Made by a program: the position numbers and the translations under genes. A model generated the notes under the pieces. The model did no database searches, was not told where the DNA came from, and saw nothing but the letters and a program-made list of their open reading frames with translations. Positions 3,145 through 18,683 of a stretch of 64,000 bases of DNA are shown piece by piece. Numbering within the stretch: position 1 is the first letter of the stretch; every line of letters begins with the position of its first letter. The stretch is from Butyrivibrio proteoclasticus. Lineage in GTDB: Bacteria > Bacillota > Clostridia > Lachnospirales > Lachnospiraceae. The stretch spans positions 1 to 64,000 of the forward strand of contig NZ_FOXO01000007.1 of assembly GCF_900115735.1 (NCBI RefSeq). The letters run 5' to 3'.

Positions 3145-3837
3145 TCAGATTAGTCCTGCGAAGACTGATGCAAATATGACAGTAAGGATGCCGGCTACAG
3201 CGATTGAAAGTGAACTCATGGCACCTTCTATTTCGCCAATCTCCATAGCTTTGGCAGTTCCTATTGCGTGGGCGGCAGTTCCGAGGGCAAGGCCTTTGGA
3301 TATAGGCTCATGTATCCTAAAGAGTTTAAAGATAATTTCAGCTAAGATATTTCCTAAAACTCCGGTGATGACAATAACTGCAACTGTGATAGTTACATAT
3401 CCTCCAAGCTCCTGTGAAACGCCCATTCCTATGGCTGTTGTGATTGACTTTGGAAGGAGGGTTACATAGCTTTCATGAGAAAGTCCCATGAGCTTGGCAA
3501 GTACGAAAACTGTCACAAGGCTTGTTATAACACCTGAAAAAATGCCGATAACTACAGCTTTTGCATTATTTTTAAGAAGCTCCCATTCTTCGTATAAAGG
3601 AATGGCAAGGCACACGGTAGCAGGTGTCAAAAGCCAGCTAAGATATTTGGCGCCTTCGTTGTAGGTGTCATAATCAATCCCGCATCCAAGCAAAAACAGC
3701 ATTGTCACTATCATTGAAATAAGAAGCGGATTAAAAAGTCCAAGGCCTGTTTTCTTTTTAAGGAAGTTTCCAAGACCGTAAGAAATAAGGCTTATTGTTA
3801 CGCCTGCATAGGCGCTGCTTTGCATAAATTCGTTCAT
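3145..3837 (-). CDS. lrgB: LrgB-family membrane protein
   Basis: This 230-residue, very hydrophobic protein with about six to seven membrane segments matches the LrgB/CidB/YohK family. The glycine- and alanine-rich block ITTAIGMGVSQELGG followed by GTAAHAIGTAKAMEIGE is characteristic. LrgA/LrgB pairs are described as antiholin-like modulators of murein hydrolase activity, and in some bacteria as pyruvate or glycolate carriers. It overlaps the upstream lrgA by four bases (stop and start share ATGA), so the two are translationally coupled. No regulatory LytSR pair lies beside them. Confidence 0.88.
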   Translation of the reverse strand: MNEFMQSSAYAGVTISLISYGLGNFLKKKTGLGLFNPLLISMIVTMLFLLGCGIDYDTYNEGAKYLSWLLTPATVCLAIPLYEEWELLKNNAKAVVIGIFSGVITSLVTVFVLAKLMGLSHESYVTLLPKSITTAIGMGVSQELGGYVTITVAVIVITGVLGNILAEIIFKLFRIHEPISKGLALGTAAHAIGTAKAMEIGEIEGAMSSLSIAVAGILTVIFASVFAGLI

Positions 3838-4196
3838 AGTGTTTTCTCCTTCTTATCCCTTCGAATGATAAACTGCGATACCAATCCGGTAGCAGCCATT
3901 ACTGTAAAGATCGTGATCACGGTAATAACCGATACGGGGATAAGAACCGGCTTAAGTACATTCCATGATGACATAAGACCTACGCCGGCAGGAATAAACA
4001 AAACAGGCATGATCTCAATGAGGAATTTACCTGCGTCCTTTACCTGATTGAGTTTGAGAATTCCTGTGAGAAGAAAGACAAACATAAGAACCATTCCATA
4101 GATGCTGGCTGGTATTGGTAGTGGAAGAATGGCTTTTAATATTTCACCCAAAAGAGAAATTGCCAGAATAATAAGAAACTGTTTTAAATACTTCAT
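3834..4196 (-). CDS. lrgA: LrgA/CidA-family holin-like protein
   Basis: This 120-residue membrane protein has four predicted helices. The family signature is visible: LLGEILKAILPLPIPASIYGMVLMF near residues 15-39, then KFLIEIMPVLFIPAGVGLM. A charged C-terminal tail (RRDKKEK) follows. It is the first gene of a two-gene minus-strand operon with lrgB. The start is preceded by GAGGGAAA. The pathway role (cell-wall turnover or small carboxylate transport) cannot be decided from sequence. Confidence 0.88.
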   Translation of the reverse strand: MKYLKQFLIILAISLLGEILKAILPLPIPASIYGMVLMFVFLLTGILKLNQVKDAGKFLIEIMPVLFIPAGVGLMSSWNVLKPVLIPVSVITVITIFTVMAATGLVSQFIIRRDKKEKTL

Positions 4197-4327: not shown

Positions 4328-4482
4328 AGCTTAGGTGTCCATCATTGCGGATGGGTGAAAAGGGAATCCGGTGAGAATCCGGAGCGAAGCCGTCACTGTG
4401 TCAGGGAGTCTGTGCTTGTTATCACTGAGAAATTGGGAAGATAGCACAGATGTTGATCGAAGTCAGGAGACCTGCCTAAGTT
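4328..4482 (+). promoter_or_regulatory. Cobalamin riboswitch
   Basis: The conserved B12 box AGTCAGGAGACCTGCCT is exact at 4461-4477. Upstream are the family motifs GGGAATCCGGTGAGAATCCGG, GCGAAGCCGTCACTGT and the opening AGGTG. The closing stem P1 pairs CTTAGG (4330-4335) with CCTAAG (4475-4480). It precedes the cobalamin synthesis operon and is expected to bind adenosylcobalamin and shut the operon off. A terminator hairpin 70 bp downstream points to control of transcription. Confidence 0.95.
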
Positions 4483-4553
4483 TTGCAATTTTGATTTGCG
4501 GACTTCGAATCAGATTCATGTGAAATATCTTTTGATATATCTATCTGAATTTG

Positions 4554-4582
4554 AAGACCACTACGCATGTGGTCTTTTTCTT
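4554..4582 (+). terminator. Riboswitch-controlled intrinsic terminator
   Basis: AAGACCAC (4554-4561) pairs perfectly with GTGGTCTT (4569-4576) around a 7-base loop and runs into TTTTTC. It sits between the B12 riboswitch and the first gene, the expected place for an expression platform. Confidence 0.85.
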
Positions 4583-4631
4583 TTTATTGCGTCAAAGTTG
4601 CAGAATGAAATCCCTGTAAAGGAGAGGAAAA

Positions 4632-6257
4632 ATGAAAAAGAATCTAGTTACTACACTTGTTCTGACAGCTTTGACAGCACTTGCAGTTTGCGGTTGCGGC
4701 AGCAGTCAGGCAGGTAATTCCGAGAGTGCTGCTACAGAAACATCAGCTGCAGCAGAAACACAGGCAAGCACGGAAGCAGCTACTACTCAGGAAACATCTG
4801 ATCAGGAAGCTGCTGATAAGGTAGCTGCTTTAATTGATGCTATTTATGTTCAGACAAGGACAGACGAGACAGATGCTCAGTGCGCTGCTGCCAAGGAGGC
4901 TTGGGATGCACTCACTGATGCACAGAAAGAAATGGTCGAAGGAGAATTTGCTGATCCTGATTATTTTGGAAGAGATACAGGTGATGCTTCATTGGATGAT
5001 CCACTTAATCAGGACGAAATAGGTGAAAATGAGATCCTTGTTGTAAGCTTTGGCACGTCTTTTAGTGACAGCCGCGTTGAGGATATTGGCGGAATTGAAA
5101 AGGCAATTGCTGCAGCAAATCCTGATTATTCAGTAAGAAGAGCATTTACAGCTCAGATCATTATCAACCATATTCAGGCAAGAGATGGTGAGAAGATCGA
5201 TAATGTGGATCAGGCTCTTACAAGAGCAGTAGATAATGGGGTAAAAAATCTTGTGATCCAGCCTACACACCTTATGCATGGTGCAGAGTACGACGAGCTT
5301 GTTGAAACAGTTAATAAATACGCTGATTCTTTTGAGACAGTTAAGATCTCAGAGCCACTTCTTGGAGAAGTTGGCGCTGATGCAACGATCATCAACGAAG
5401 ATAAGCAGACTGTAGCAAAAGAGATAACAAATGCAGCTCTTTTGGATGCTGGCTTTGAGAGTCTTGAAAAGGCTGCAGATGAGCAGACTGCTTTTGTATT
5501 CATGGGCCATGGCACAAGCCATGCTGCAAAGGTTACCTATTCTCAGATGCAGACTCAGATGAATGAACTTGGCTACAAGAATGTATTCGTCGGAACTGTA
5601 GAGGGTGAGCCTGAAGAGACATCATGTGAAAATGTAATCGCTGCTGTTCAGGAAGCAGGTTATACAAAGGTCATCTTAAGACCTCTTATGGTTGTAGCAG
5701 GAGATCATGCCAACAACGACATGGCAGGTGATGACGAGGATTCATGGAAGTCAATGTTTGAGGCAGCAGGCCTTTCAGTTGATTGCCAGATCGTAGGTCT
5801 TGGCCGAATCGAGAATGTTGAGGCTCTTTATGTTCAGCACACAGCTGATGCAATAAAAAAAAACAGTGATTCAGTAAAATCAGAGGAATCTGGTATAGCT
5901 CTTGAAAAAGGTACTTACGAAGTTTCTTTTAACACAGATTCAAGTATGTTCCGTGTTAATGAAGCTAACAATGGAAAAGGCACACTGACAGTAAATGAAG
6001 ATGGAACAGCGTATGTTTCAATTGCGCTTGTTTCCAAAAAGATAGTTAATCTCTATGTTGGAACAGCAGCCGATGCTGAGAAGAATGAAGCAGACTGGCT
6101 TAAGCCTTATGACGTTGAGGTTACTTACAGCGATGGAAGCAAAGAAACCGTAAATGGTTTTGATGTTCCTGTTGAGAAGCTTTCAGAGGAGTTCGACCTT
6201 GCCATTTTAGGTGAAAAAGGCAAGTGGTACGATCATAAAGTTTCTGTAACACAGTAA
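4632..6257 (+). CDS. cbiK: Surface-lipoprotein cobaltochelatase CbiK with extra domains
   Basis: The protein has 541 residues, against about 260 for ordinary CbiK, which inserts Co2+ into sirohydrochlorin. A lipoprotein signal ends at VCGC (Cys22). A low-complexity Ser/Ala/Thr/Glu linker follows, then a helical segment (about 60-110) with DALTDAQKEMVE, a pattern known from Gram-positive surface proteins. The chelatase domain spans about 135-415, with the catalytic-type His in QPTHLMHGAEYDE (H213, H216), GHGTSH (H293, H297), TVEGEPE and LMVVAGDHANND. The last 120 residues (from about 420) form a beta-rich, NEAT-like domain beginning GTYEVSF. The chelatase is therefore predicted outside the membrane. 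It is the first gene after the B12 riboswitch, with AAGGAGAGG before the ATG. Confidence 0.88.
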   Translation: MKKNLVTTLVLTALTALAVCGCGSSQAGNSESAATETSAAAETQASTEAATTQETSDQEAADKVAALIDAIYVQTRTDETDAQCAAAKEAWDALTDAQKEMVEGEFADPDYFGRDTGDASLDDPLNQDEIGENEILVVSFGTSFSDSRVEDIGGIEKAIAAANPDYSVRRAFTAQIIINHIQARDGEKIDNVDQALTRAVDNGVKNLVIQPTHLMHGAEYDELVETVNKYADSFETVKISEPLLGEVGADATIINEDKQTVAKEITNAALLDAGFESLEKAADEQTAFVFMGHGTSHAAKVTYSQMQTQMNELGYKNVFVGTVEGEPEETSCENVIAAVQEAGYTKVILRPLMVVAGDHANNDMAGDDEDSWKSMFEAAGLSVDCQIVGLGRIENVEALYVQHTADAIKKNSDSVKSEESGIALEKGTYEVSFNTDSSMFRVNEANNGKGTLTVNEDGTAYVSIALVSKKIVNLYVGTAADAEKNEADWLKPYDVEVTYSDGSKETVNGFDVPVEKLSEEFDLAILGEKGKWYDHKVSVTQ

Positions 6258-6283
6258 TATTTTCTAATCCGGAGGCATTTATT

Positions 6284-7771
6284 TTGAAAAAGACACTTGC
6301 AATGATCATAGCTCTTTTGCTCATAATTACGGGGTGTGGTCAGAATACAGAAAACAAAATACTTGCCGACGGAGAATATGTTTGCGAAGTTTCTTTAGAG
6401 GGAGGAAGCGGCAAAGCAACAGTTGAATCTCCGACTGAAGTAGTAGTGAAGGATGGAAAGATCAAAGTAGTGGTCACATGGTCCAGTTCAAACTATGATT
6501 ACATGATAGTTGACGGGCAAAAATTTCTTAACGAGGCTTCGGCCGGAGAAAAATCAAAGTTTACTATACCTGTTCCTGAATTTGATCGGGAATTTACGGT
6601 GATTGCGGATACAACTGCCATGAGTACGCCCCATGAGATAGAGTATAGGCTTAACGTTCATGGAACAGGAGAAAAAGACATTTCTTCAAAAGAGAGCACA
6701 ACCCCGGTAATAAACTTAGGACACACTTCGACGGAAGGACTAAGTCTTACAGGAAGCCTTGAACTTAAGTATGCAAAAGAGTTTAAGGTAGACTTTTACG
6801 AGGATAGCGAGAAAAACAAATATAATTTCATAACTATTGGAAGTGGAGATTTAGAGCAGAGTTTTTTGCAGAGCTGCTCAGATACGGCTTCCCAATATGA
6901 AACAATAAAGACTGATAAAACTTATCTGGTGTCAACATCTGTAATGGACCTTATTGCTTCAATAGGAGCTCTGGACAGTATAAGACTATCAGGAACCAAA
7001 AAAGAAGACTGGTCAGTAGATGAGGCCAAAAGGGCCATGGAGAGCGGCAGCCTTCTCTATGCGGGAAAATATGCGGCACCTGACTATGAGCTTCTTTTAT
7101 CGAAAGGCTGCAATTTTGCAATAGAAAATACGATGATCTATCACAACCCGGAGGTCTATGAGAAACTTAAAAGCCTTGGGATCACAGTTATGATAGAGCG
7201 CTCAAGCTATGAGAGTGACCCTCTTGGAAGACTTGAGTGGGTAAAACTCTACGGAGTAATTTATAACAAACTTGATGAAGCAACAGCTCTTTTTGATGAG
7301 CAGGAAAAAAGAGTAAACGAGGTTAAAGCAAAAGAAAAAACAGGGAAATCGGTAGCAGTTTTTTCTATTAATTCAAATGGAACAGTGACAGTCAGACAAA
7401 ATGGAGATTATATAAGCTCCATGATAGATCTGGCGGGAGGCATTTATGTTCCAAAAGGTTTGACTGACGAAGAAGATAGTAATCTTTCCACTATGAATAT
7501 TACAGTGGAGGATTTTTATGCAGGGGCAAAAGACGCAGACCTGCTTATATACAACGGCACCATCGAGGGGAATATAGACAGGAAAAAAGAACTGACGGAA
7601 AAGATGCCGCTTCTTGAAGAGTTTAAAGCTTTTAAAAGTGGCATGATATATTGCCTTCCGGAGAGCTTTTTTCAGCAGAGCACAAGCGCTGCTGATTTTA
7701 TAGAGGACGTTAATAATATACTTGAAGGCGATACAAAAAAGCTTAGCTTTTTGTACAGGTTAGAGGAATGA
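6284..7771 (+). CDS. ABC transporter binding lipoprotein, corrinoid/tetrapyrrole or metal-chelate type
   Basis: This 495-residue lipoprotein has a lipobox IITGC (Cys19). The start is TTG with GGAGG nine bases upstream. Residues about 28-130 form a small beta domain (DGEYVCEVSLEGGSGKA, WSSSNYDYMIVDG, ADTTAMSTPHEIEY), a module I associate with Lachnospiraceae iron-type transport proteins. Residues about 190-490 form a class III (BtuF/FhuD-like) binding fold, with GKYAAPDYELLLSKGCNFAIE and GRLEWVKLYGVIY. It lies between cbiK and the permease, with which it overlaps by four bases. Placement inside a B12-controlled synthesis operon suggests a cobalt-linked tetrapyrrole or corrinoid; iron-siderophore uptake is the alternative. 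Confidence 0.8.
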   Translation: MKKTLAMIIALLLIITGCGQNTENKILADGEYVCEVSLEGGSGKATVESPTEVVVKDGKIKVVVTWSSSNYDYMIVDGQKFLNEASAGEKSKFTIPVPEFDREFTVIADTTAMSTPHEIEYRLNVHGTGEKDISSKESTTPVINLGHTSTEGLSLTGSLELKYAKEFKVDFYEDSEKNKYNFITIGSGDLEQSFLQSCSDTASQYETIKTDKTYLVSTSVMDLIASIGALDSIRLSGTKKEDWSVDEAKRAMESGSLLYAGKYAAPDYELLLSKGCNFAIENTMIYHNPEVYEKLKSLGITVMIERSSYESDPLGRLEWVKLYGVIYNKLDEATALFDEQEKRVNEVKAKEKTGKSVAVFSINSNGTVTVRQNGDYISSMIDLAGGIYVPKGLTDEEDSNLSTMNITVEDFYAGAKDADLLIYNGTIEGNIDRKKELTEKMPLLEEFKAFKSGMIYCLPESFFQQSTSAADFIEDVNNILEGDTKKLSFLYRLEE

Positions 7772-8790
7772 TTTTGCAAAAAAGAACCGCTGATCAGATT
7801 CTTATTATTTTCATATTGGTAGTTCTACTTGTGATCCTTGGGTGTATTTCTGTGCTGACAGGAAGTGCAGATATAGGCATCAAAGAGCTTTATGCTCTTT
7901 TTAATGGATCAGTAGATGATCTTGCCAGGAATATTTTACTGACAATAAGACTGCCACGGATCCTTGCGGCAGTTATCATGGGCGGAGCGCTGGCTGTTTC
8001 AGGCTTCTTATTACAGGTATTTTTTGGAAATCCCATTGCAGGGCCTTATGTGCTTGGTGTGTCTTCATCAGCCAAGCTCTTTGTCGCACTTGTAATGGTC
8101 TTTTTATTAAAAAGCGGCAGGGTATTTTCATCCTTTGGAATGATAGCTGCAGCATTTTTGGGGTCACTTCTTTCAATGGGGATCGTTCTGAGCCTGGCTG
8201 GTAAAGTCCGCAATATGTCTCTTTTAGTAGTATGCGGCGTTATGATCGGGTACATATGCTCTGCAATAACTGATTTTGTTGTGTGTTTTGCAGAAGACTC
8301 TAATATTGTTAATCTCCATAACTGGTCACTTGGAAGCTTTTCAGGAACTACAATAGAGCATGTGCGGATATCGGTAATCATCGTGTTTGCATGCCTTTTT
8401 TTATCATTCATGCTCTCAAAGCCTATTGGCGCATATCAGCTTGGTGAAGCGTATGCAAGGAACATGGGAGTCAATATAAAGGCATTACGAGTAATCCTTA
8501 TTCTTGCATCAAGCCTTTTGTCGGCAACAGTGACAGCCTTTGCCGGTCCTATATCTTTTGTGGGAATAGCAGTTCCACATATCATGCGTGGTCTTTTTAA
8601 GACAGAAAAAACACTTATCATGATACCTGCGTGTTTCCTTGGAGGAGCAATTATTACACTTATTTGCGATGATGTAGCAAGGACAGCCTTTGCACCCATG
8701 GAACTTAGTATCAGTTCTGTGACGGCTGTGGGGCTTGCACCTGTTGTTATCCTGCTGCTTTTAAGGCGAGGTGAGAGACGAAGTGAATAA
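7768..8790 (+). CDS. FecCD/BtuC-type ABC permease
   Basis: This 340-residue protein has about ten membrane segments and matches the FecCD/BtuC permease family. The hallmark blocks are RLPRILAAVIMGGALAVSGFLLQVFFGNPIAGPYVLGVSS (near residues 60-100), LGSFSG, and GPISFVGIAVPHIMRG near 265-280, which contacts the ATPase. The start ATG overlaps the stop of the binding-protein gene (ATGA). It imports whatever the 6284-7771 lipoprotein captures, presumably a corrinoid, tetrapyrrole or metal chelate. Confidence 0.88.
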   Translation: MILQKRTADQILIIFILVVLLVILGCISVLTGSADIGIKELYALFNGSVDDLARNILLTIRLPRILAAVIMGGALAVSGFLLQVFFGNPIAGPYVLGVSSSAKLFVALVMVFLLKSGRVFSSFGMIAAAFLGSLLSMGIVLSLAGKVRNMSLLVVCGVMIGYICSAITDFVVCFAEDSNIVNLHNWSLGSFSGTTIEHVRISVIIVFACLFLSFMLSKPIGAYQLGEAYARNMGVNIKALRVILILASSLLSATVTAFAGPISFVGIAVPHIMRGLFKTEKTLIMIPACFLGGAIITLICDDVARTAFAPMELSISSVTAVGLAPVVILLLLRRGERRSE

Positions 8791-9577
8791 AGTATTAAGA
8801 GTTTACAAGTTGGATGTCGGCTATAGAAAAAATGTAGTTTCAGGCATCACAATGGAGGTTATGCCGGGTGAGATCGTGGCACTGATAGGTCCTAACGGGG
8901 CAGGCAAGTCTACGATCCTTAATACCATCACAAGGCAGCTTGAGAAACTATCAGGAAATATTTATATAAAAGAAAAAGAGGACAAACTTGTAAATGGCGA
9001 AGAACTCTCAACTGTGATGTCTATGGTCACAACAAAGAGGATCACGCCGCAGCTTATGTCCGCAAGAGAAGTGGTGGCAACAGGGAGATACCCTTATACA
9101 GGAAGACTTGGAATACTATCTCCAAAGGACTGGGAAAAAGTTGATCAGTCGATCGCTTTGGTTGATGCAAAAGAATTTGCAGAGAATGACTTTGGTAAAC
9201 TTAGCGACGGACAGCGACAGAGGATCATGCTTGCCAGGGCAATCTGTCAGGAGCCTGAGATAATGATCCTTGATGAGCCCACTTCTTTTCTTGATATTCA
9301 GTTCAAAGTGGATATCCTGTCAATAATCAAGAGGATGGCTAAAAGAGAAAACATAGCGGTTGTGCTCTCTATGCATGATCTTGAATTTGTAGAGGCTTTA
9401 GCGGATAAAGTGGTTGCGATAAATGATGGAAGAGTCGTAGCTGTTGGAGCACCAGAAGAGATAGTAACCGGTGAGACAATAGAAGAGATATATCACATGG
9501 AAAAAGGCTGTGGAAAGACGCTGATTGACGGACTTAGAGGCTATTCAGACGCTCTTTTTCAGCTTATAAACAGGTAA
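8771..9577 (+). CDS. FecE/BtuD-type ABC ATPase
   Basis: This 268-residue ABC ATPase has Walker [10 protein letters not shown], signature [14 protein letters not shown] (the usual G is D-G), Walker [13 protein letters not shown] and the switch His in LSMHDLE. It powers the permease encoded just upstream. It starts with GTG at 8771 inside the end of the permease gene; a second GTG at 8783 is an alternative start. The order binding protein, permease, ATPase is that of B12 and siderophore importers, and expression should follow the upstream B12 riboswitch. Confidence 0.88.
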
Positions 9578-9581
9578 ATAT

Positions 9582-11039
9582 ATGAAAACAAAAGTAATAA
9601 TGGTTCAGGGAACTATGTCCAATGTGGGAAAGAGCCTTTTAGCAGGCGGCCTTTGCCGTGTATTTAAACAGGACGGGTATAGAGTTATGCCATTCAAATC
9701 CCAAAATATGGCGCTTAACTCTTTTGTCACAGAGGATGGATTAGAGCTTGGAAGAGCCCAGGCAATGCAGGCAGAATGCGCAGGAGTAAAGCCTTCTGTG
9801 TACATGAATCCTGTTTTGTTAAAGCCCACAAATGACATAGGGTCTCAGGTTATAGTAAATGGCGAAGTTATAGGTAATATGCCTGCCAGAGAGTATTTTA
9901 AATATAAAAAGAAACTGATACCCGATATACTTGCAGCCTATCACGAGCTTGAAAAGCAGGCAGACATTATTGTGGTTGAGGGCGCAGGAAGCCCTGCGGA
10001 GATCAATCTGAAGGCAGATGATATAGTCAACATGGGACTTGCAAAGCTCATTGATGCGCCGGTCCTTCTTGTGGGGGATATCGACAGGGGAGGCGTATTT
10101 GCCCAGCTCCTTGGTACTTTGGAACTCCTTGAAAAAGACGAGAGAGAAAGAGTAAAGGGCCTGATCATCAACAAGTTCAGAGGGGATAAGAGTCTTCTTG
10201 ATTCCGGAATAGAGATGATAGAAGAGATGGGACATGTGCCTGTTGTAGGAACGGTGCCATATACAAGACTTCTCATAGATGATGAGGACAGCCTTAGCGA
10301 AAGGCTTACGGATCACAGGCAGGAGAATGGCCCTTCAATAGAGGTAGCAGTAGTAAGGCTTCCCAGGATATCCAATTTTACAGATGTTGCTCCATTTGAA
10401 AGCATTGATGGGGTAAACGTGAGATTTATAACAAATCCCAGAGATATAGAGAGCGCGGACCTTATCATCATCCCCGGCAGTAAGAATACTATAGGAGACC
10501 TTAGGTGGATGCGGGAGTCCGGAATAGAGGCGGCCATAAAAAGAAAATCTTCCTCCTGTCCGGTTATTGGCATATGCGGAGGCTTTCAGATGCTTGGAGG
10601 AATAATAAGCGATCCTGACAAAGTTGAAGAGGGCGGAAGTATTAAGGGACTTGGCCTTTTGCCTGTAGAAACTATGCTTAAGGATAAAAAAAGAAGAACC
10701 CAGTGTGAAGGTACTTTTGACCGGATGGATGGCTTCTTTGATGTGCTCTCAGGAGCAAAATATACAGGCTATGAAATACATATGGGTGAGACTAAGGGCA
10801 GAACCGGAGAAGCTCTTTTGTCATGCCAGCAGGAGAATGTTTTTGGCACCTATGTTCACGGAGTCTTCGATGAAGGTGATATAGCTCTTGACCTGGTAAA
10901 AAAGATAGCAGATAAAAAAGGCATAAAGCTTGGAGAGGCAGTAAATTACAGGGTCTTTAAGGAAAACGAATATGACAGGCTTGCGAAGGTCGTCAGAGAT
11001 AACCTGGACATGGATTATATATACAGCATTTTGGGGTGA
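9582..11039 (+). CDS. cbiP: Cobyric acid synthase CbiP
   Basis: This 485-residue enzyme amidates the b, d, e and g carboxylates of adenosyl-cobyrinate a,c-diamide using glutamine and ATP. The N-terminal dethiobiotin-synthetase-like nucleotide-binding domain begins [17 protein letters not shown], followed by [11 protein letters not shown] and [12 protein letters not shown]. The C-terminal triad-type glutamine amidotransferase domain has [11 protein letters not shown] (Cys about 332) and YVHGVFDE (His about 425). Length is normal. It starts four bases after the transporter ATPase, so uptake and synthesis genes share one transcript. Confidence 0.95.
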
Positions 11040-11041
11040 AT

Positions 11042-11671
11042 ATGGAGAATATCGAATTTGTACTTCCTTCTGAAATTGAAAAGAGAAGCTTTGAGATAAT
11101 AACAAAAGAGCTTGAGGACATGGGCAAGATAATTCCTGATGAAGAGGCTCCTGTCACAAAAAGAGTGATACATACAAGTGCGGATTTCGAATATGCTGAT
11201 ACTCTTGCCTACTCAGAAAACGCCATAAAGATTGCCAGAGATATGATAAAAAACGGCGCACATATCGTTACCGACACCAATATGGCCATGGCGGGCATCA
11301 ATAAAAAGAGACTTGCTACGTACGGCGGAGAAGTCCACTGTTTCATGGCTGATGAAAGTGTTGCTAAGGAGGCGAAAGAGCGCGGAGTCACAAGGGCAAC
11401 TGTAAGTATGGAAAGGGCAGCAGAGCTTAATGTTCCTATAATTTTTGCCATAGGAAATGCCCCGACAGCCCTTATTTCCTTATATGAGATGATGGAAAAA
11501 GGTATCTACAGACCTGAGTTTGTCATTGGTGTGCCGGTGGGATTTGTAAATGTAGTAGCGGCAAAAGAGCTCTTTTTACAATCAGATGTCCCGTACATAA
11601 TAAACCGCGGAAGAAAAGGCGGCAGTAATATAGCTGCAGCTATCGTAAATGCATTGGTATATGGCCTATGA
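11042..11671 (+). CDS. cbiC: Cobalt-precorrin-8 methylmutase CbiC
   Basis: This protein of about 209 residues belongs to the CobH/CbiC family, which moves the methyl group from C11 to C12 to give cobyrinic acid. The catalytic His is in KRVIHTSADFEYAD near residue 43. Further family blocks are TDTNMAMAGINK, AIGNAPTAL and GVPVGFVNVVAAKE, and GRKGGSNIAAA closes the protein. I chose the ATG at 11042 because GGGGTGA is correctly spaced before it; a GTG at 11036 would add two residues. It overlaps cbiD by four bases at its end. Confidence 0.94.
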   Translation: MENIEFVLPSEIEKRSFEIITKELEDMGKIIPDEEAPVTKRVIHTSADFEYADTLAYSENAIKIARDMIKNGAHIVTDTNMAMAGINKKRLATYGGEVHCFMADESVAKEAKERGVTRATVSMERAAELNVPIIFAIGNAPTALISLYEMMEKGIYRPEFVIGVPVGFVNVVAAKELFLQSDVPYIINRGRKGGSNIAAAIVNALVYGL

Positions 11672-12777
11672 GAAAAGGATTTACAACAGGGAGCTGTGCT
11701 GCGGCTGCATCAAAGGCAGCAGCGTACATGCTGCTTTCGGGAAAAGAAAAAAGCACGATTAAGATAGAGACCCCTGCTGGTGTTATGTTTGAGGCTAAGA
11801 TCGTGGATATACAACAGGGAAAGACCTATGTAACCTGCGCTGTTATCAAGGATGGTGGTGATGATCCGGATGTTACAACAGGAAGCCACATTGTTTCAAA
11901 AGTAAGTATTATAGAGGATTCTTTTGAAAAAGATATACATTCCTCATTGAAAGTAATAATTGACGGCGGAATCGGAGTTGGAAGAGTTACAAAGCCTGGA
12001 CTTGACCAGGAGGTTGGAAATGCTGCAATAAATCATGTTCCCAGGGAGATGATCCAAAAAGAAGTTACAGAAGTGTGCAGTATTTTTGACTTTAATGGCG
12101 TTTTGAAAGTTGAGATCTCCGTTCCAGAGGGGGAAGAGCTTGCAAAAAGGACATTTAACCCCAGGCTTGGAATTGAGGGCGGAATTTCGATACTTGGAAC
12201 CACAGGCATTGTTGAGCCCATGAGTACTAAGGCTATTCTTGATACCATAAGGGTAGAGCTTAATCAGAAAAAAGCTCTTGGGCAGAAGGTTGCCATAGTA
12301 TCTCCTGGCAATTTTGGCCAGCAGTTTATGAAGGATAATTTTGGATATGACCTTGATAAAAGCGTAAAGTGCTCCAATTTCATCGGTGAAACCGTAGACA
12401 TGGTATGCGATATGGGATTTGAGAAAATGGTTCTTACAGGCCATATCGGAAAGCTCATCAAAGTTGCGGGCGGTATCATGAATACTCATTCCCATGAGGC
12501 TGACTGCAGAATGGAAATCCTTGCCTGTTGCGGAATCCTGGCTAATGGTGATTCTGCACTTGCAAGAAAGATACTTGGGTGCACAAACACTGAGGAAGCA
12601 CTTCGCCTTGTGGAAGAGGCTGGGATACTTAAGGAGACCATGGACATTGTACTTGAGAAGGTTTTGTTTTACCTAAACTTCAGGGCTCAGGGGAAAATAC
12701 AGATAGAATGTGTCATCTATTCCGGGGATTTTGGGATACTTGCAAAGTCTGCCGGTGCAAAAGATTTACTGATGTAA
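11668..12777 (+). CDS. cbiD: Cobalt-precorrin-5B C1-methyltransferase CbiD
   Basis: This 369-residue protein matches CbiD, the S-adenosylmethionine-dependent C1 methylase of the anaerobic pathway. Family marks are the very N-terminal RKGFTTGSCAAAASKAA, KDGGDDPDVTTGSHI, GIGVGRVTKPGLDQEVGNAAIN, GGISILGTTGIVEPMS and TGHIGKLIKVAGGIMNTHS. Its presence, with CbiG and CbiK, shows that the window encodes the anaerobic (early cobalt insertion) route. The start overlaps the cbiC stop (ATGA). Confidence 0.95.
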   Translation: MRKGFTTGSCAAAASKAAAYMLLSGKEKSTIKIETPAGVMFEAKIVDIQQGKTYVTCAVIKDGGDDPDVTTGSHIVSKVSIIEDSFEKDIHSSLKVIIDGGIGVGRVTKPGLDQEVGNAAINHVPREMIQKEVTEVCSIFDFNGVLKVEISVPEGEELAKRTFNPRLGIEGGISILGTTGIVEPMSTKAILDTIRVELNQKKALGQKVAIVSPGNFGQQFMKDNFGYDLDKSVKCSNFIGETVDMVCDMGFEKMVLTGHIGKLIKVAGGIMNTHSHEADCRMEILACCGILANGDSALARKILGCTNTEEALRLVEEAGILKETMDIVLEKVLFYLNFRAQGKIQIECVIYSGDFGILAKSAGAKDLLM

Positions 12778-12792: not shown

Positions 12793-13551
12793 ATGGTTCA
12801 TTTTGTTGGTGCAGGGTGCGGTGCTGCTGACCTTATAACGGTAAGGGGCATGAAGCTCTTACAAAAAGCAGATGTAATAATCTATGCAGGATCTTTGGTT
12901 AATCCACAGCTTTTAGAATATGCAAAAGAGACCTGCGAAATATATAACAGCGCCCTTTTGACCCTGGATGAAGTCATGGAGATAATGGTCCTTTCAGAAA
13001 GAAATGGAAAGGAAGTGGTCAGGCTTCACACAGGGGAGCCTAGTATATATGGGGCTGTTATGGAACAGATGCAGCTTCTTGATAAAGAAAATATAAGCTA
13101 TGACAGCTGCCCGGGTGTCAGCGCCTGCTTTGGGGCTGCGGCTTCGCTTAATCTTGAATACACACTTCCTGATGTGAGTCAGACCCTTATAATCACCAGA
13201 ATGGAGGGGAAAACCCCGGTCCCTGTAAATGAATCAATTGAGAGCCTGGCAGCTCATAAGGCCTCAATGGCAATATATTTAAGTGCGGGAATGCTTGATG
13301 AATTATCAAAAAGGCTGATTAACGGTGGATACAGCGCTGATACTCCGGCTGCAATTGTGTATAAGGCAAGCTGGCCTGATGAAAAGAAAATTCTCTGTAC
13401 TGTGGGGAGCCTTTATGAGAGCGGACAGAAAGAAGGCATTAAGAATCTGGCAGTTGTTCTTGTTGGAGGAGTGATAGCAAAATCCGGATACTCATTGTCA
13501 AAACTCTATTCACCGGATTTTGAAACAGGTTTTAGAGGAATAAAAAAATGA
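12793..13551 (+). CDS. cbiF: Cobalt-precorrin-4 C11-methyltransferase CbiF
   Basis: This 252-residue tetrapyrrole methylase has the glycine-rich start VHFVGAGCGAADLITVRG, YAGSLVNPQLL, LHTGEPSIYGAVMEQM and the SAM-loop-like GVSACFGAAASL. It methylates C11 of cobalt-precorrin-4. GAGGAAAA precedes the ATG. It overlaps cbiG by four bases. Among the methylase paralogues in the operon, YAGSLVNPQLL and TGEPSIYG point to CbiF/CobM rather than CbiH or CbiL. Confidence 0.93.
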   Translation: MVHFVGAGCGAADLITVRGMKLLQKADVIIYAGSLVNPQLLEYAKETCEIYNSALLTLDEVMEIMVLSERNGKEVVRLHTGEPSIYGAVMEQMQLLDKENISYDSCPGVSACFGAAASLNLEYTLPDVSQTLIITRMEGKTPVPVNESIESLAAHKASMAIYLSAGMLDELSKRLINGGYSADTPAAIVYKASWPDEKKILCTVGSLYESGQKEGIKNLAVVLVGGVIAKSGYSLSKLYSPDFETGFRGIKK

Positions 13552-14597
13552 ACCAGATCAAAGTGGTACAGGCCTCCTATATTACAGATAAAGGAAGGCA
13601 GTTGGCAGAAAAGCTCTTTTCCGAAAATAGTGATATTCTTGCTGAGATAAAAAGTGAGGATGAGAAGCTCTCTGACTTTTTTAAAAGATGCTTTGAAGAA
13701 CATCAACCTATAGTATTTATCGGAGCTGTGGGAATTGCAGTAAGGCTCCTTTCTCCATGCATTCAGAATAAATTAAAAGATATCCCGGTAGTTGTAATAG
13801 ATGAGCTGGGACACTTTGTCATTCCGATTTTGTCAGGGCATTACGGAGGTGGTAATGACCTGGCAGCTCTTTTGGCCAAAAGAATAGGTGCTACAGCAGT
13901 TATCACAACTGCAACGGATATTAACAGAGCCTTTGCCATAGATGTTTTTGCCAGGAAAAACGGCCTTGTTATCTCTGAAAAGGAAAAGATAAAAAAGATA
14001 TCTTCCAAGGTTTTAAGGGGCGAAAAGGTTAGGTTTTTCTGTGACCTTAAGGAAAAAGAGTTTGTGGGAGAAGAGCCGGCAGAGCTATCAGAAATCAATA
14101 TGAATTTACAAAATGATAGCACTGGGCTTTTATGCATTCCTGATTTTTATATAGGTGATGATAAAGAAAAAAAGACCTTTGGTGATGCGCTTTTTCTTTA
14201 TCCAAAGCGCATGGTCTTAGGAATGGGATGCAAGAAAGGCAAGAGCTTTGAGCAACTGAAAGAATTTGTTCTTGAGCAGTATGACGAAGAAGAGCTATCC
14301 CAAAATCTCTATGCCATCTGTTCAATAGATGTGAAAAGTAGCGAGATTGGCCTACTTAAGCTGTGTCAGTATTTTGGAGTAAAGCTCCTCACATTTTCCT
14401 CTGAAGAAATTGAAAAGGCCGAAGGGAATTTTGAGGAATCTGATTTTGTAAAGAGCAAAGTCGGCGTGGGAAATGTATGTGAAAGGGCAGCAGTTTTGGG
14501 CGCAGGCAAAGGGGCGGAGCTTTTAAAAACTAAGACTTCCAGAGATGGAATGACCCTTGCGGAAGCAAAGAGAAGGATGATCACAATAACATGGTAG
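13548..14597 (+). CDS. cbiG: Cobalt-precorrin-5A hydrolase CbiG
   Basis: This 349-residue protein opens the ring lactone and releases acetaldehyde in the anaerobic pathway. The N-terminal and central parts show VFIGAVGIAVRLLSP and IDELGHFVIPILSGHYGGGNDLA followed by ATAVITTATDIN. The C-terminal CbiG domain (from about 220) begins RMVLGMGCKKGKS and ends with AVLGAGKGAELL. Ends overlap cbiF (four bases) and cbiH (seven bases), which indicates tight translational coupling. Confidence 0.94.
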   Translation: MNQIKVVQASYITDKGRQLAEKLFSENSDILAEIKSEDEKLSDFFKRCFEEHQPIVFIGAVGIAVRLLSPCIQNKLKDIPVVVIDELGHFVIPILSGHYGGGNDLAALLAKRIGATAVITTATDINRAFAIDVFARKNGLVISEKEKIKKISSKVLRGEKVRFFCDLKEKEFVGEEPAELSEINMNLQNDSTGLLCIPDFYIGDDKEKKTFGDALFLYPKRMVLGMGCKKGKSFEQLKEFVLEQYDEEELSQNLYAICSIDVKSSEIGLLKLCQYFGVKLLTFSSEEIEKAEGNFEESDFVKSKVGVGNVCERAAVLGAGKGAELLKTKTSRDGMTLAEAKRRMITITW

Positions 14598-15331
14598 GAA
14601 AGATATTTTTAGTTGGAATGGGGCCCGGAGATAAGAGTATGATGACCGGGCAGGCAATTGAAGCTATGGAAAGCAGCGATATCATTGCAGGCTATACAGT
14701 CTATGTGGATCTTGTTAAGGATCTTTTTCCGGAAAAAGACTTTTTTACAACCCCTATGAAACAGGAAATTGAAAGGTGCAGGAAAAGCTTTGAATTTGCA
14801 AGGGAAGGGAAAAATGTAGCACTTATCTGCAGCGGCGATGCTGGAGTTTACGGTATGGCATCACCTGTGTATGAACTTTGGGAAGAGTATCCTGAGGTAG
14901 ACGTTTGTGTGATACCTGGCGTTACTGCAGCAATTTCCGGGGCAGCGGTCCTGGGAGCACCCATAAATCATGACTTTTGCGTAATATCCTTAAGTGACTT
15001 ATTGACCCCATGGGAGCAGATAGAAAAGAGACTGAAAGCAGCGATAGATGGGGATTTTTCGATAGTTATCTACAATCCTTCCAGCAAAAAGCGTGCAGAC
15101 TATTTGAAAAAAGCCTGTGACATCATGCTTTCAAGCGGTGCAGACGAAAAAAGAGCCTGCGGTTACGTGGAAAATATTGGCCGAGAATGCACAAGGGCCC
15201 ATGTGTGCACTTTATCAGACCTTAAAAACGAGAGTGTAAACATGTTCACCACAGTATTTATCGGTAATTCAAGATCTAAACTTATTGGTGATAAATTGGT
15301 GACTCCAAGAGGGTACAGGATAAATGAATAA
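14591..15331 (+). CDS. cbiH: Cobalt-precorrin-3 C17-methyltransferase CbiH
   Basis: This 246-residue tetrapyrrole methylase shows the CbiH/CobJ pattern: FLVGMGPGDKSMMTGQAIEAM, AGYTVYVDL, MKQEIERCR, ICSGDAGVYGMASPVYEL, GVTAAISGAAVLGAP and the YNPSSKKRADYL segment. It carries out ring contraction and C17 methylation. No CbiL-type C20 methylase is found in this operon. CbiL acts one step earlier, so it must be supplied elsewhere. Confidence 0.94.
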   Translation: MVGKIFLVGMGPGDKSMMTGQAIEAMESSDIIAGYTVYVDLVKDLFPEKDFFTTPMKQEIERCRKSFEFAREGKNVALICSGDAGVYGMASPVYELWEEYPEVDVCVIPGVTAAISGAAVLGAPINHDFCVISLSDLLTPWEQIEKRLKAAIDGDFSIVIYNPSSKKRADYLKKACDIMLSSGADEKRACGYVENIGRECTRAHVCTLSDLKNESVNMFTTVFIGNSRSKLIGDKLVTPRGYRINE

Positions 15332-17351
15332 GATAATCATTTTTGGCGGAACAACTGAAGGAAAAGAACTGGCAATAGACCTTGCAAAGGCTCAAATACC
15401 AAGTATTTATCTTGTTGCAACGGATTACGGGAAAATGGTGATAGATGATGATCCTTTTATTGACGTGCGCATCGGAAGGCTTGACAGATGGCAGATGAAA
15501 GAGCTTTTTGAAAGAGAAATGCCACTGGCGATAGTTGATTCAACTCATCCTTATGCAGAGCTTGTGAAAAAAGAAATCGATGATGCAAGAAAGGATTTTC
15601 ATGATATTCGTTTTTTTAGAGTGCACAGAAGCAATGAGAAGATCGCTGCCCCTGGCGCAAGGTTCTTTGAAAGTGCCAGGGACTGCGTCAAAGCACTTCT
15701 TGAAACGAGGGGTACAGTTTTTTTGACAACAGGCTCTAAGGATATACCTGAGTTTTGCCGTGAAAAGAGCTTATTAGAACGCCTTGTGGTAAGAGTCATC
15801 CCAAATAGTGAGAGCCTTAAGATCTGTTACGACAATGGACTTTTGGGAAAGCAGATAATAGCCATGCAGGGGCCATTTTCCTATGACATGAATCTTACTT
15901 TTTTTAAAAACTATGATGCAAAGGTCGTGGTCTTAAAGGAGAGCGGAAAGGCCGGAGGAGAGCTTGAAAGGATACAGGCCGCCAGGGATGCAGGGGCTCA
16001 GATCTTTATAATAAAGCGCCCGGTCGAAAATGCCGGTGAAGACTATGAAAGAGTCAGAGAGAAAATTATCAGTCTGTTTGGCCAAAACACAGGTAAAGAG
16101 CGAGTAAAGAGCCTGCAAGTCACTTTGGCGGGCTTTGGAATGGGGAAAGAAACCCTTACTTTGGAAGTACAAAAGGCCTTAGATGAAGCGGATTACATTT
16201 TTGGTGCGGGGAGAATGCTTGAGGGCATAGACTCAGACTGCCCAAAGTATCCTTATTATCTTGCATCTGACATAATACCTGCTCTTAAAAAGATAAAAGA
16301 AGAAAATGAAAAAGAAACTATTAAAGTGGTAGTTCTTTTCTCAGGTGATACTGGATTTTACAGCGGCGCCGGAAAGCTCCTTGAAGCGCTTGAAAATGAG
16401 GGCTACAGTCCCATAGTTTTGCCGGGAATATCATCAGTAAGTGCCCTGTGTGCAAGAATAGGTGAGAACTGGCAGGATAAAGCAATAATCAGTACTCATG
16501 GAGTAGATGAGCAAAAATGGACCGGAGAGCTAATAGCATCTGTAACAGGATATGCCGGCACCATAGTCATTACTTCCGGTGTAAAAGATATAAACAGAAT
16601 CGGAAAACTTCTAAAAAAACTGGAGGATAATAAAAAAGGTAAGTTCACAGTATATGCCGGCTGTAACATTTATGGTGATGAAAAGATTTGTGTGCTTGAC
16701 GCCGCAGGATGCATGGAACTTAAGGAAGAAGGTCTTTACACCCTGATGATCAAAAATGAGCAGAAGGCAGAAAAAAAGCTTCTTCCGGGACTTAAGGATG
16801 AAGAATTTATCAGGGACAAAGTACCAATGACAAAAGAGGAAATAAGAACTTTGTCTATTTGCAAGCTAAAGCCATGTGATGGAGATGTCATATATGATAT
16901 CGGAGGTGGAACAGGCTCTGTTTCAGTGGAATGTGCAAGATTATCTCCTAAAATAAAAGTTTACTCTGTGGAGAAAAAGAAAGAGGCATGCGACCTTATT
17001 AGGAAAAATGCTGACAAATTCATGCTTTTAAATCTCGAAGTAGTGGAAGGCGTTGCACCAGGAGCTCTTGATAATCTGCCTGCTCCTGACAAGGTTTTTA
17101 TTGGCGGTAGCAGTGGGAATCTAAAGAGTATATTTGAAAGATTAAGAAGCTTTGAAAAGAAGATAAGAGTTGTTGCAAATGCAGTTACGATCGAGACAAT
17201 CTCTGCATTAAATGAACTTATCAAAGATTATGAGATCAAAGATGCAGATATAGCACTTGTCCAGGTAAGTAAAGCAAAAAGCCTTGGACAATACTCCCTT
17301 ATGGAAGCAGAAAACCCGGTATATATCGTTTCTTTTACGATTGGACATTGA
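15324..17351 (+). CDS. CbiJ-CbiE-CbiT triple fusion
   Basis: This 675-residue protein combines three enzymes. Residues 1 to about 245 are a CbiJ-type cobalt-precorrin-6A reductase (IIFGGTTEGKELA, DSTHPYAE, LTTGSKDIPEF). Residues about 264-470 are a CbiE-type C5-methylase (AGFGMGKETLTLEVQKAL, FSGDTGFYSGAGKLLE, LPGISSVSALCARIG). Residues about 490-675 are a CbiT-type C15-methylase and decarboxylase (DKVPMTKEEIR, IYDIGGGTGSVSVE, VFIGGSSGNLKSI). CbiET fusions are common; joining CbiJ in front makes one polypeptide for consecutive late steps. It overlaps cbiH by eight bases. No frame change is needed to read through, so the fusion looks real. Confidence 0.92.
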   Translation: MNKIIIFGGTTEGKELAIDLAKAQIPSIYLVATDYGKMVIDDDPFIDVRIGRLDRWQMKELFEREMPLAIVDSTHPYAELVKKEIDDARKDFHDIRFFRVHRSNEKIAAPGARFFESARDCVKALLETRGTVFLTTGSKDIPEFCREKSLLERLVVRVIPNSESLKICYDNGLLGKQIIAMQGPFSYDMNLTFFKNYDAKVVVLKESGKAGGELERIQAARDAGAQIFIIKRPVENAGEDYERVREKIISLFGQNTGKERVKSLQVTLAGFGMGKETLTLEVQKALDEADYIFGAGRMLEGIDSDCPKYPYYLASDIIPALKKIKEENEKETIKVVVLFSGDTGFYSGAGKLLEALENEGYSPIVLPGISSVSALCARIGENWQDKAIISTHGVDEQKWTGELIASVTGYAGTIVITSGVKDINRIGKLLKKLEDNKKGKFTVYAGCNIYGDEKICVLDAAGCMELKEEGLYTLMIKNEQKAEKKLLPGLKDEEFIRDKVPMTKEEIRTLSICKLKPCDGDVIYDIGGGTGSVSVECARLSPKIKVYSVEKKKEACDLIRKNADKFMLLNLEVVEGVAPGALDNLPAPDKVFIGGSSGNLKSIFERLRSFEKKIRVVANAVTIETISALNELIKDYEIKDADIALVQVSKAKSLGQYSLMEAENPVYIVSFTIGH

Positions 17352-17357
17352 GGAAGA

Positions 17358-18683
17358 ATGAATTATCCAAGAATACTTATAGCAGCCCCTAAAAGCGGAA
17401 GTGGAAAAACCACAGTAACCCTCGGGATACTTGCTGCCCTTAAAAATAAGAATATAAATGTGTGCAGCTTTAAATGCGGCCCGGACTACATTGACCCCAT
17501 GTTTCACAGAAATGTGGTAGGTATCCCTTCAGGGAATCTGGACACTTTTTTTACGTCAGATGACCTTACAAGAAAAATCTTTGCAGATGAGTATGCGGGG
17601 GATATCGCTGTAATAGAAGGCGTAATGGGGCTTTACGATGGCTTAGGCGGAGTAGAGGAACAGGGTTCATCTTATGATCTGGCAAGAGTTTTAAAAGCAC
17701 CGATTGTGCTGGTAGTTGATGGGAGAGGCGCCGGAAGATCTGTTATTGCGCAGATAAGAGGCTTTCTTGACTATGACAGTGAAAAACTTATAAAAGGCGT
17801 GATTCTTAATAAGACATCAAAGAGCTTTGCGGCTGTACTTATGCCCCTTATAGAAAAAGAGCTGGGAATAAGGTGCTATGGGTATGTTGAAAATAAAAAA
17901 GATATTGAGCTCTCAAGCAGACACTTAGGCCTTATTCTCCCCAAAGAAATAGATGATCTTAAAGAAAAACTTGATATGACAGCCGGGATAATTGAAGAAG
18001 GCGTAGACATAAAAGGCCTTTTAGAGCTTTCTAAAAAGGCAGAAACTATTTCTTTTCCCAAAAGAAAGGCTGATACAAAGGCACTAAGAGCAAGAATAGC
18101 AGTGGCATGTGATGAGGCTTTTTGTTTTTACTACAGAGAAAACCTCGAACTCTTAAAAAGCCTTGGGGCGGATATTGTTTTCATTTCACCAATCAGGGAT
18201 AAGGCGCTTCCTGAAAATACAGATGGCATCATTCTTGGTGGGGGCTATCCTGAAAATTATCTAAAAGAGCTTTCTGATAATAGAGATATGCTAAATGATA
18301 TAAAAGAAAAGCTCGCCCTTGGACTTCCCGTTTTGGCGGAGTGCGGAGGATTCATGTACCTTACGAAAAAGATCACGGATCCCGATGGAAATTCTTACGA
18401 AATGGCTGGTTTTATCGATGCTGATACAAGCTGGGCAGGGAAACTTGTACGCTTTGGCTATGTTGATCTAAGTGATGACGAGCTTCATATTAAGGGTCAT
18501 GAATTCCATTATTATGACACAGATAATAACGGAGAGGCTTTTGTGGCAAAAAAGCCAACCGGAAATCGTAAGTACATGTGCATCCATCATATAAATGGCT
18601 CATATATTGGTTTTCCGCACCTTTATTATCCTTCATGCCCTGAGTTTGTCGAGAAGTTTTTGACAATGGCAGTAAAGCACTGA
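17358..18683 (+). CDS. cbiA: Cobyrinate a,c-diamide synthase CbiA
   Basis: This 441-residue enzyme amidates the a and c side chains of cobyrinate with glutamine and ATP. The N-terminal ATPase domain has IAAPKSGSGKTTVTLGIL, FKCGPDYIDPMFH, VIEGVMGLYDGLGG. The C-terminal glutamine amidotransferase domain carries LAECGGFMYLTKK (Cys about 329) and the late HEFHYYD. It is the last gene of the operon and starts six bases after the triple-fusion gene, with GAGGAAG upstream. Genes for the lower ligand and nucleotide loop (cbiB, cobU, cobS, cobT) are not seen. Confidence 0.95.
   Translation: MNYPRILIAAPKSGSGKTTVTLGILAALKNKNINVCSFKCGPDYIDPMFHRNVVGIPSGNLDTFFTSDDLTRKIFADEYAGDIAVIEGVMGLYDGLGGVEEQGSSYDLARVLKAPIVLVVDGRGAGRSVIAQIRGFLDYDSEKLIKGVILNKTSKSFAAVLMPLIEKELGIRCYGYVENKKDIELSSRHLGLILPKEIDDLKEKLDMTAGIIEEGVDIKGLLELSKKAETISFPKRKADTKALRARIAVACDEAFCFYYRENLELLKSLGADIVFISPIRDKALPENTDGIILGGGYPENYLKELSDNRDMLNDIKEKLALGLPVLAECGGFMYLTKKITDPDGNSYEMAGFIDADTSWAGKLVRFGYVDLSDDELHIKGHEFHYYDTDNNGEAFVAKKPTGNRKYMCIHHINGSYIGFPHLYYPSCPEFVEKFLTMAVKH

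Follow-up and report, generated by a model that had tools for sequence, protein, structure and literature searches.

A B12-riboswitch operon of Butyrivibrio proteoclasticus joining a predicted exported cobaltochelatase, an importer and the corrin pathway: a probable tetrapyrrole-scavenging system

The DNA analyzed here (the window) is a stretch of 64,000 nucleotides from Butyrivibrio proteoclasticus (contig NZ_FOXO01000007.1 of assembly GCF_900115735.1, positions 1 to 64,000, forward strand). It carries an operon under a cobalamin (B12) riboswitch, in which a CbiK-type cobaltochelatase with a lipoprotein signal is followed by a binding lipoprotein, by the permease and ATPase of an ATP-binding cassette (ABC) importer, and by corrin (cbi) genes. 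It is fairly likely that the operon encodes a tetrapyrrole-scavenging system with an exported CbiK, an importer of its own and a corrin pathway. The gene order, the riboswitch, the lipoboxes, the intact active site, the fold, the gene absences and a family-wide correlation were read from the sequence, and from these we infer the ligand, the location of the chelatase, the chelation outside and the direction of flow. The organism probably scavenges a ring precursor, loads cobalt outside the cell, imports the product and finishes the ring inside. The initial annotation of the window had proposed an extracellular chelatase that feeds an importer and the synthesis pathway. That proposal is supported, most strongly by the absence of HemC, CobA and CbiL. 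Profile searches also found the riboswitch, chelatase, binding lipoprotein, permease and ATPase where the annotation had placed them.

The predicted exported chelatase and its importer

The cbiK gene (4632-6257, plus strand) encodes a predicted exported lipoprotein of 541 amino acids with a PF06180 match, a lipobox cysteine (Cys22) and a structure model. A ribosome-binding site was read upstream of the ATG at 4632. The chelatase domain covers residues 135-408 (PF06180, E 3e-77, 259.9 bits against a curated cut-off of 26.2), and the protein has the two-lobed chelatase fold. The helical segment and the extra C-terminal beta domain described earlier are both present in the structure model, in which residues 37-112 are mostly helix, within a helical segment of about 37-130, and residues 427-540 form a beta domain of eight strands. 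The lipoprotein signal was likewise borne out: Cys22 is present, invariant in an alignment of 21 CbiK sequences (A1), and nearly so in the 35 sequences of a second set (A3, the window protein plus 34 of 50 fused CbiK proteins). Lipoproteins were called from the sequence with a simple lipobox rule, and export is a prediction. After export, CbiK would be tethered by its lipid to the outside of the membrane.

Four histidines, H213, H216, H293 and H297, had been named as the intact catalytic motifs. All four exist, but alignment with Salmonella CbiK gives a different catalytic set, E219, H293 and H359, which we take from the Salmonella enzyme to be that of CbiK, with the positions assigned by alignment. 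These three residues are invariant in A1 (n=21) and A3 (n=35). With NF047852, the sirohydrochlorin cobaltochelatase equivalog model, the window protein scores 203.9 bits, below the cut-off of 400. This cut-off does not separate exported from cytoplasmic proteins, because three cytoplasmic CbiO-CbiK fusions also fall short at 277-290 bits. By family, fold and intact active site, the window CbiK is a predicted cobaltochelatase.

The identity of the extra beta domain was absent from the initial annotation, and in relatives the domain appears to be NEAT-like. PF05031 (NEAT) was the commonest match of the CbiK C-terminal domains; 11 of 14 chosen domains (A5) matched at E 1 or better, the best at 1.9e-5, and the family was also matched in 14 of 35 whole CbiK proteins. 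The window CbiK's own C-terminal domain has no PF05031 match at E 1 or better (curated cut-off 32.8 bits). Among 12 chosen N-terminal domains of binding proteins (A6), five match, and the window copy is the best of them (E 2.7e-4, 21.8 bits, under the curated 32.8). The label NEAT-like is used because the curated cut-off was not reached. When the CbiK C-terminal domain was aligned with the binding-protein N-terminal domain by hhalign, the probability was 90.5. In profile searches against solved structures, the CbiK domain matched iron-transport-associated domains weakly (E 0.042 and 0.064), behind a surface-layer protein (0.014), and the binding-protein domain gave a single, uninformative match to PDB profiles (E 1.8). 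No NEAT chain was among the matches listed in fold searches with the whole models; these were filled by chelatase and binding domains, and the result excludes nothing. The NEAT-like domains are mobile in relatives, being found on CbiK, on the binding protein, or together as a separate lipoprotein between both. They may handle the tetrapyrrole.

The binding lipoprotein (6284-7771, plus strand, TTG start, PF01497, lipobox Cys18) has the NEAT-like domain at residues of about 30-125 and a solute-binding domain at about 164-491; it was compared in a set of the window protein and all 27 fused binding proteins (A4). It is followed on the same strand by a FecCD/BtuC-type permease (7768-8790, PF01032, E 1.9e-75) and the importer ATPase (8771-9577, PF00005, E 7.7e-30). 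All three family matches are above cut-off. The window permease is closest to BtuC models by score, yet it reaches 201.3 bits against a cut-off of 334 for the NCBIfam BtuC equivalog. The earlier description of a binding lipoprotein, a BtuC/FecCD permease and an ATPase after CbiK, followed by corrin genes, was confirmed by these profile searches.

Gene losses, family distribution and alternative explanations

The genome of the window (G000) is 4.17 Mb in 76 contigs and 99.85% complete. A second, cytoplasmic CbiK, which the initial annotation had set against its own proposal, was not found; the sole PF06180 gene of this genome is the window cbiK. CbiX was searched for in this genome alone and was not found elsewhere in it, and a profile search of the genome found no HemC. 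Four proteins match PF00590, namely CbiF, CbiH, CbiE and RsmI; CobA and CbiL are therefore absent, and dedicated models also find neither in the genome. PF13241 matches three proteins: TrkA and glutamate synthase, neither of them a siroheme chelatase, and a protein of 216 amino acids beside a potassium channel-like gene, for which no NCBIfam match was found at E 1e-30. Judged by its gene content, the genome has no known route to uroporphyrinogen III, precorrin-2 or cobalt-factor III, yet it retains the ring pathway from CbiH onward. Given the absence of HemC, CobA and CbiL, the cbi genes could function only with a tetrapyrrole brought in from outside.

Two B12 riboswitches were found in the genome. 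The second heads another importer locus with a binding lipoprotein, a FecCD permease, an ATPase, CobD, CobT, CobU, CobS and CbiB. CobT and CbiB score over their cut-offs, and CobD, CobU and CobS under theirs. The permease of this locus is nearest to an F420-0 permease and its ATPase to a heme ATPase, all under cut-off. Each of the two importers thus appears to be encoded next to the steps downstream of its substrate: the second one, for corrinoids, beside the nucleotide-loop genes, and that of the window, presumably for tetrapyrroles, beside the ring genes. The CobU of the second locus (L226, 10765-11691) has 308 residues, and the kinase model covers only 1-179.

The distribution was then analyzed in a family sample of 298 genomes from 280 genera, which were searched for CbiK, its lipoprotein type, HemC and CbiL. 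Two exported clades were defined by score with A1, clade A (over 580 bits, 72 genomes) and clade B (291-385 bits, 26 genomes). Clade B is exported in 25 of its 26 genomes; G051 has no export signal and was counted as non-exported. The other 79 genomes with PF06180 were taken as cytoplasmic by score, and N-termini were read at 23 loci plus four more, that of G094 being cut off. A true CbiL was called at E below 1e-30 (139 genomes), and a corrin methyltransferase match was any TIGR01467 match at E 0.001 (193 genomes), a model that cross-matches other methyltransferases. The lipobox rule matched 68 of 72 proteins in clade A (64 of 72 under a stricter rule), 24 of 26 in clade B, and none of the 23 cytoplasmic CbiK proteins. 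Three clade A open reading frames (L072, L087 and L109) have a signal without a lipobox, and L104 has neither by rule; by eye, its lipobox lies downstream of a wrongly placed start. L014 shares with those three a signal-like N-terminus without a lipobox by rule, and these four proteins are possibly secreted and not anchored. In the CbiK tree, the 23 cytoplasmic proteins split from the rest at a branch with a support of 100 in the Shimodaira-Hasegawa-like approximate likelihood ratio test (SH-aLRT).

The exported type correlates with the absence of HemC in genomes that have corrin methyltransferase matches. It was found in 48 of 58 HemC-less genomes with corrin methyltransferase matches, in 49 of 135 HemC-bearing genomes, and in none of 105 HemC-less genomes without such matches. 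A second CbiK beside the exported type occurs in 0/48 HemC-less versus 32/49 HemC-bearing genomes. Fisher's test on these tables gave p values of 2.3e-9 and 2.0e-13, with kinship ignored. The same pattern is seen within clade A, where none of the 40 HemC-less genomes has a further CbiK and 24 of the 32 HemC-bearing genomes do. Exported CbiK is present in 21 of 25 HemC-less genomes with a true CbiL, and CbiL in 21 of the 48 HemC-less genomes that carry exported CbiK. CobA was tested in 52 HemC-less genomes of interest and in 26 of the 32 HemC-bearing clade A genomes, and it was over cut-off in 3/52 and 26/26, respectively. CbiB was found in 51 of the 52 HemC-less genomes versus 5 of 24 contrast genomes without exported CbiK. 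One HemC-less genome, G194, is a single contig of 100% completeness. CbiL is often an orphan in HemC-less genomes, far from the operon and without any further cbi gene recognised in the DNA around it (L120, L122-L124, L126, L127, L130, L131, L133, L135-L138).

The gene neighbourhoods agree with the arrangement in the window, and the same gene order, which the initial annotation had suggested looking for, recurs in other Lachnospiraceae. Gene order was counted as a 30-bit phmmer match within 6 kb downstream, which undercounts where open reading frames overlap by more than 300 bases (L101). Among 71 clade A loci, the window not among them, a binding protein and permease follow CbiK in 31/39 HemC-less and 16/32 HemC-bearing genomes, and corrin genes lie within 6 kb after it in 23/39 and 7/32. 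The genome-collection loci are the best 80 of at least 587 confirmed matches and are therefore biased to the window's own architecture; of these 80, 56 carry the binding protein and 53 the permease, and in 35 there are corrin genes in the vicinity. The nearest named relative among them is Butyrivibrio sp. AE2015, with a CbiK 93% identical to that of the window. Among the loci searched, a B12 riboswitch lies upstream of CbiK at 24 of 25 in clade A, all but L108, and at 8 of 9 in clade B, the exception being the unexported G051. The CbiK-importer module was met again in dozens of genera, well beyond what chance would produce. Ten ATPases beside or fused to cytoplasmic CbiK, chosen from the 23 cytoplasmic loci because an ATPase was visible there, were all CbiO of a cobalt importer. 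The cytoplasmic chelatase thus pairs with a cobalt importer, and the exported one with a tetrapyrrole-type importer.

Some loci depart from these arrangements. In L015, L019, L030 and L032, the cytoplasmic CbiK is fused behind the CbiO ATPase in one protein. In G085 (L040, 16314-20000), two lipoprotein CbiK genes stand in tandem, a separate B12 riboswitch accompanies each of them, and a CbiK of the cytoplasmic type lies nearby. Close CbiK relatives were also found in metagenome contigs labelled Treponemataceae, Eggerthellaceae and Treponema (L186, L211 and L218), which may reflect gene transfer or a binning error.

Several findings weigh against a scavenging role. The own genome is without CbiL, as are 23 of the 40 HemC-less clade A genomes, itself included; sirohydrochlorin alone would therefore be insufficient, as its import would leave the C20 methyl group unexplained. 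For the CbiL-less genomes, import of factor III or its cobalt form would be the simplest answer. Seventeen of the 49 HemC-bearing genomes have the exported type as their sole CbiK, so the sirohydrochlorin that these make would be metalated by CbiX or by something else. Exported CbiK is missing from ten HemC-less genomes with corrin matches; two of these, G051 and G127, have a sole CbiK that lacks a signal peptide. A CbiK-family gene of another type is present in four of the 105 HemC-less genomes without corrin matches. On the best CbiK tree, clade A shows no fewer than 17 changes of HemC, but three independent pairs stand on well-supported branches, too few for a kinship-corrected test. An adjacent binding protein is absent in 23 of the 71 clade A loci, of which L040 and L099 end at a stretch or contig edge and L101 was miscounted; two of these genomes have the importer elsewhere. 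The nearest folds of the binding domain are siderophore and heme binders, and family models cannot say which of the two importers carries corrinoids. In G051, the sole CbiK (L111, 12001-12882) groups with the exported clades on a very long branch (2.17) in a HemC-less genome, and no riboswitch, binding protein or NEAT-like match was found near it; this is perhaps a return to the cytoplasm.

One alternative is that the system acquires heme or iron, as has been proposed for Iht/FetB of Porphyromonas gingivalis. The surface CbiK would remove iron from heme or swap its metal, and the importer would take heme, iron or the freed porphyrin. The initial annotation had set a heme or iron ligand of the binding protein against its own proposal. 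Such a ligand did not appear, and a general likeness of fold is all that connects the binding protein with heme. A B12 riboswitch controls the operon, which continues into corrin genes, and none of the 105 HemC-less genomes without corrin matches carries the system although they equally need heme iron, with the caveat of the four that hold another CbiK-family gene. The riboswitch, the cbi operon and the 0/105 result place this role lower, and we consider it unlikely.

Uptake of corrinoids is improbable to a similar degree. CbiK would then have turned into a surface protein that binds or trims B12 and its relatives among the corrinoids, with a plain BtuFCD as the importer. Corrinoid importers are usually controlled by B12 riboswitches, the permease scores closest to BtuC models, though below cut-off, and no cbi genes adjoin in some genomes. 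However, the other FecCD-type importer, joined to nucleotide-loop genes, is better placed for corrinoids, and because it exists a plain BtuFCD is ranked lower. The chelatase active site is invariant, and the cbi genes of HemC-less genomes would be left without a substrate. A cytoplasmic CbiK made from an internal start, with the signal peptide in a minor or unused form, is very improbable: an in-frame ATG (codon 102) and TTG (codon 121) precede the chelatase domain and G051 is a near relative without a signal peptide, but these codons are other residues in most of 21 relatives, the lipobox cysteine is invariant, the ribosome-binding site stands at the ATG of 4632, and a cell without HemC and CobA has no internal sirohydrochlorin.

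Operon layout and proposed route

The whole operon lies on the plus strand. The riboswitch aptamer (RF00174, 4316-4493) scores 99.9 bits against a gathering score of 31.5 (E 8.8e-24). A terminator-like hairpin of nine pairs followed by a T run (4553-4577) is placed between the aptamer and cbiK and is a candidate expression platform; its position is the sole argument for it, as the terminator scan gave 10 sites overall versus 11.4 in shuffles. The promoter scan found nothing above chance (27 sites versus 29.8 in shuffles).

Behind the importer genes lie cbiP for cobyric acid synthase (9582-11039, NF001989, 631 bits, cut-off 273), cbiC for cobalt-precorrin-8 methylmutase (11036-11671, PF02570, E 2.9e-77, under the NCBIfam equivalog cut-offs) and cbiD (11668-12777, TIGR00312, 414 bits, cut-off 200). 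They are followed by cbiF for cobalt-precorrin-4 C11-methyltransferase (12793-13551, TIGR01465, 317 bits, cut-off 260), cbiG for cobalt-precorrin-5A hydrolase (13548-14597, NF004466, E 9.4e-82, under its cut-off) and cbiH for the C17-methyltransferase (14591-15331, TIGR01466, 292 bits, cut-off 246), whose substrate in the known pathway is cobalt-factor III. The last two genes are a cbiJ-cbiE-cbiT fusion (15324-17351), identified by profile matches, and cbiA for cobyrinic acid a,c-diamide synthase (17358-18683, NF002204, 433 bits, cut-off 254). Because the genes overlap or nearly touch, a single transcript for the whole riboswitch-cbi operon is likely.

In the proposed scavenging route, low B12 would allow the riboswitch to permit transcription of the operon, and CbiK and the binding protein would be exported and lipid-anchored outside the cell membrane. 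The NEAT-like domains would capture a sirohydrochlorin-family tetrapyrrole from the surroundings and hand the ring over, and CbiK would insert cobalt outside, into a metal-free or metal-exchanged tetrapyrrole. The cobalt-tetrapyrrole would pass to the binding protein and be imported by the permease and ATPase. CbiH, F, G, D, J, E, T, C, A and P would then build the corrin ring inside, and the separately regulated second locus, with its FecCD-type importer, CobD, CobT, CobU, CobS and CbiB, would finish the cofactor.

Other genes of the window lie outside this route. LrgB and LrgA genes (3145-4196, minus strand) are divergent from the riboswitch operon, and an Abi_2 abortive-infection-like protein lies near them (2034-2900, PF07751 E 9.8e-50; phrog_2158). 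An OppC-type oligopeptide permease (36504-38594) has RCC1-like repeats of the beta-propeller type between its N-terminal segment and its permease domain, which is an unusual insertion.

Significance and comparison with known systems

The closest layout is that of Iht/FetB in Porphyromonas gingivalis, which is described as having a CbiK-like lipoprotein, a binding protein, a permease and an ATPase, as in the window. Iht is assigned to heme and iron, and FetB is credited with Mn-protoporphyrin (PMC10913741, PMC13402209). A TonB receptor is described as a feature of Iht, and none was among the window operon genes identified. The solved FetB chain has 293 residues and is the chelatase domain alone, whereas the window CbiK has added domains. 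Butyrivibrio sp. AE2015, the nearest named relative, has no outer membrane of the Bacteroidota kind.

A broader proposal is tentative and is held with somewhat less than even confidence. Cobalt insertion may have been relocated to the cell exterior in a large number of gut and rumen Clostridia that have lost tetrapyrrole synthesis. An exported CbiK would load cobalt into sirohydrochlorin or factor III that neighbours release, and a dedicated importer would supply the half pathway with the product. The CbiL-less members, this one included, would enter a step later, at the C20-methylated factor III, and Iht of P. gingivalis would be recast as an importer of B12 precursors. If this is true, a named transporter and chelatase would be assigned to the uptake of an early corrin intermediate, and the loss of early genes while late ones stay would be explained. 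Sirohydrochlorin or factor III would be predicted as a shared nutrient, and two distinct early intermediates would serve as common goods in the gut. Predictions of B12 prototrophy in gut microbes use gene lists in which CbiK counts towards de novo synthesis, one example being the pathway table of PMC6593275. Should CbiK lie outside in species that also lack the early genes, these would be precursor scavengers and not makers.

Other exported chelatases differ in setting. CbiK-P of Desulfovibrio vulgaris sits in a Gram-negative periplasm, unlike the window CbiK. It coexists with a cytoplasmic CbiK and binds heme, and it is not known to share an operon with genes for a binding protein, an importer and corrin synthesis. 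The HmuS/CobN-like dechelatases of Bacteroidota are described as chelatase relatives acting on tetrapyrroles outside the cytoplasm, as is proposed here for CbiK; they belong to another chelatase class, proposed to take iron from heme. BtuFCD shares with the window operon the binding-protein class, the FecCD permease, the ATPase and the B12 riboswitch, but it is without the chelatase and the NEAT-like domains that the operon has.

The tetrapyrrole precursor salvagers of Shelton et al. 2019 (PMC6461909) are defined, in the available text, by the absence of early tetrapyrrole genes with corrin and nucleotide-loop genes kept. Dependence on 5-aminolevulinic acid (ALA) was tested in the same source, which notes that P. 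gingivalis lacks precorrin-2 synthesis; the present proposal, if true, would make it possible to test a long-standing puzzle, the corrin pathway of P. gingivalis without precursor synthesis. Like the salvagers, the own genome is without early genes (HemC, CobA) and keeps the nucleotide-loop genes. Its corrin ring pathway is incomplete, however, as it is without CbiL. The precursor examined there was ALA, whereas entry here would come after uroporphyrinogen III, at or beyond sirohydrochlorin. The available text of that account names no importer or exported chelatase, unlike the window system. Among the top-ranked results of a search of open-licence literature, no paper linked an exported cobaltochelatase to both an importer and the corrin pathway. 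The parts of the system belong to known families, and their combination and its link to the loss of precursor synthesis appear to be new.

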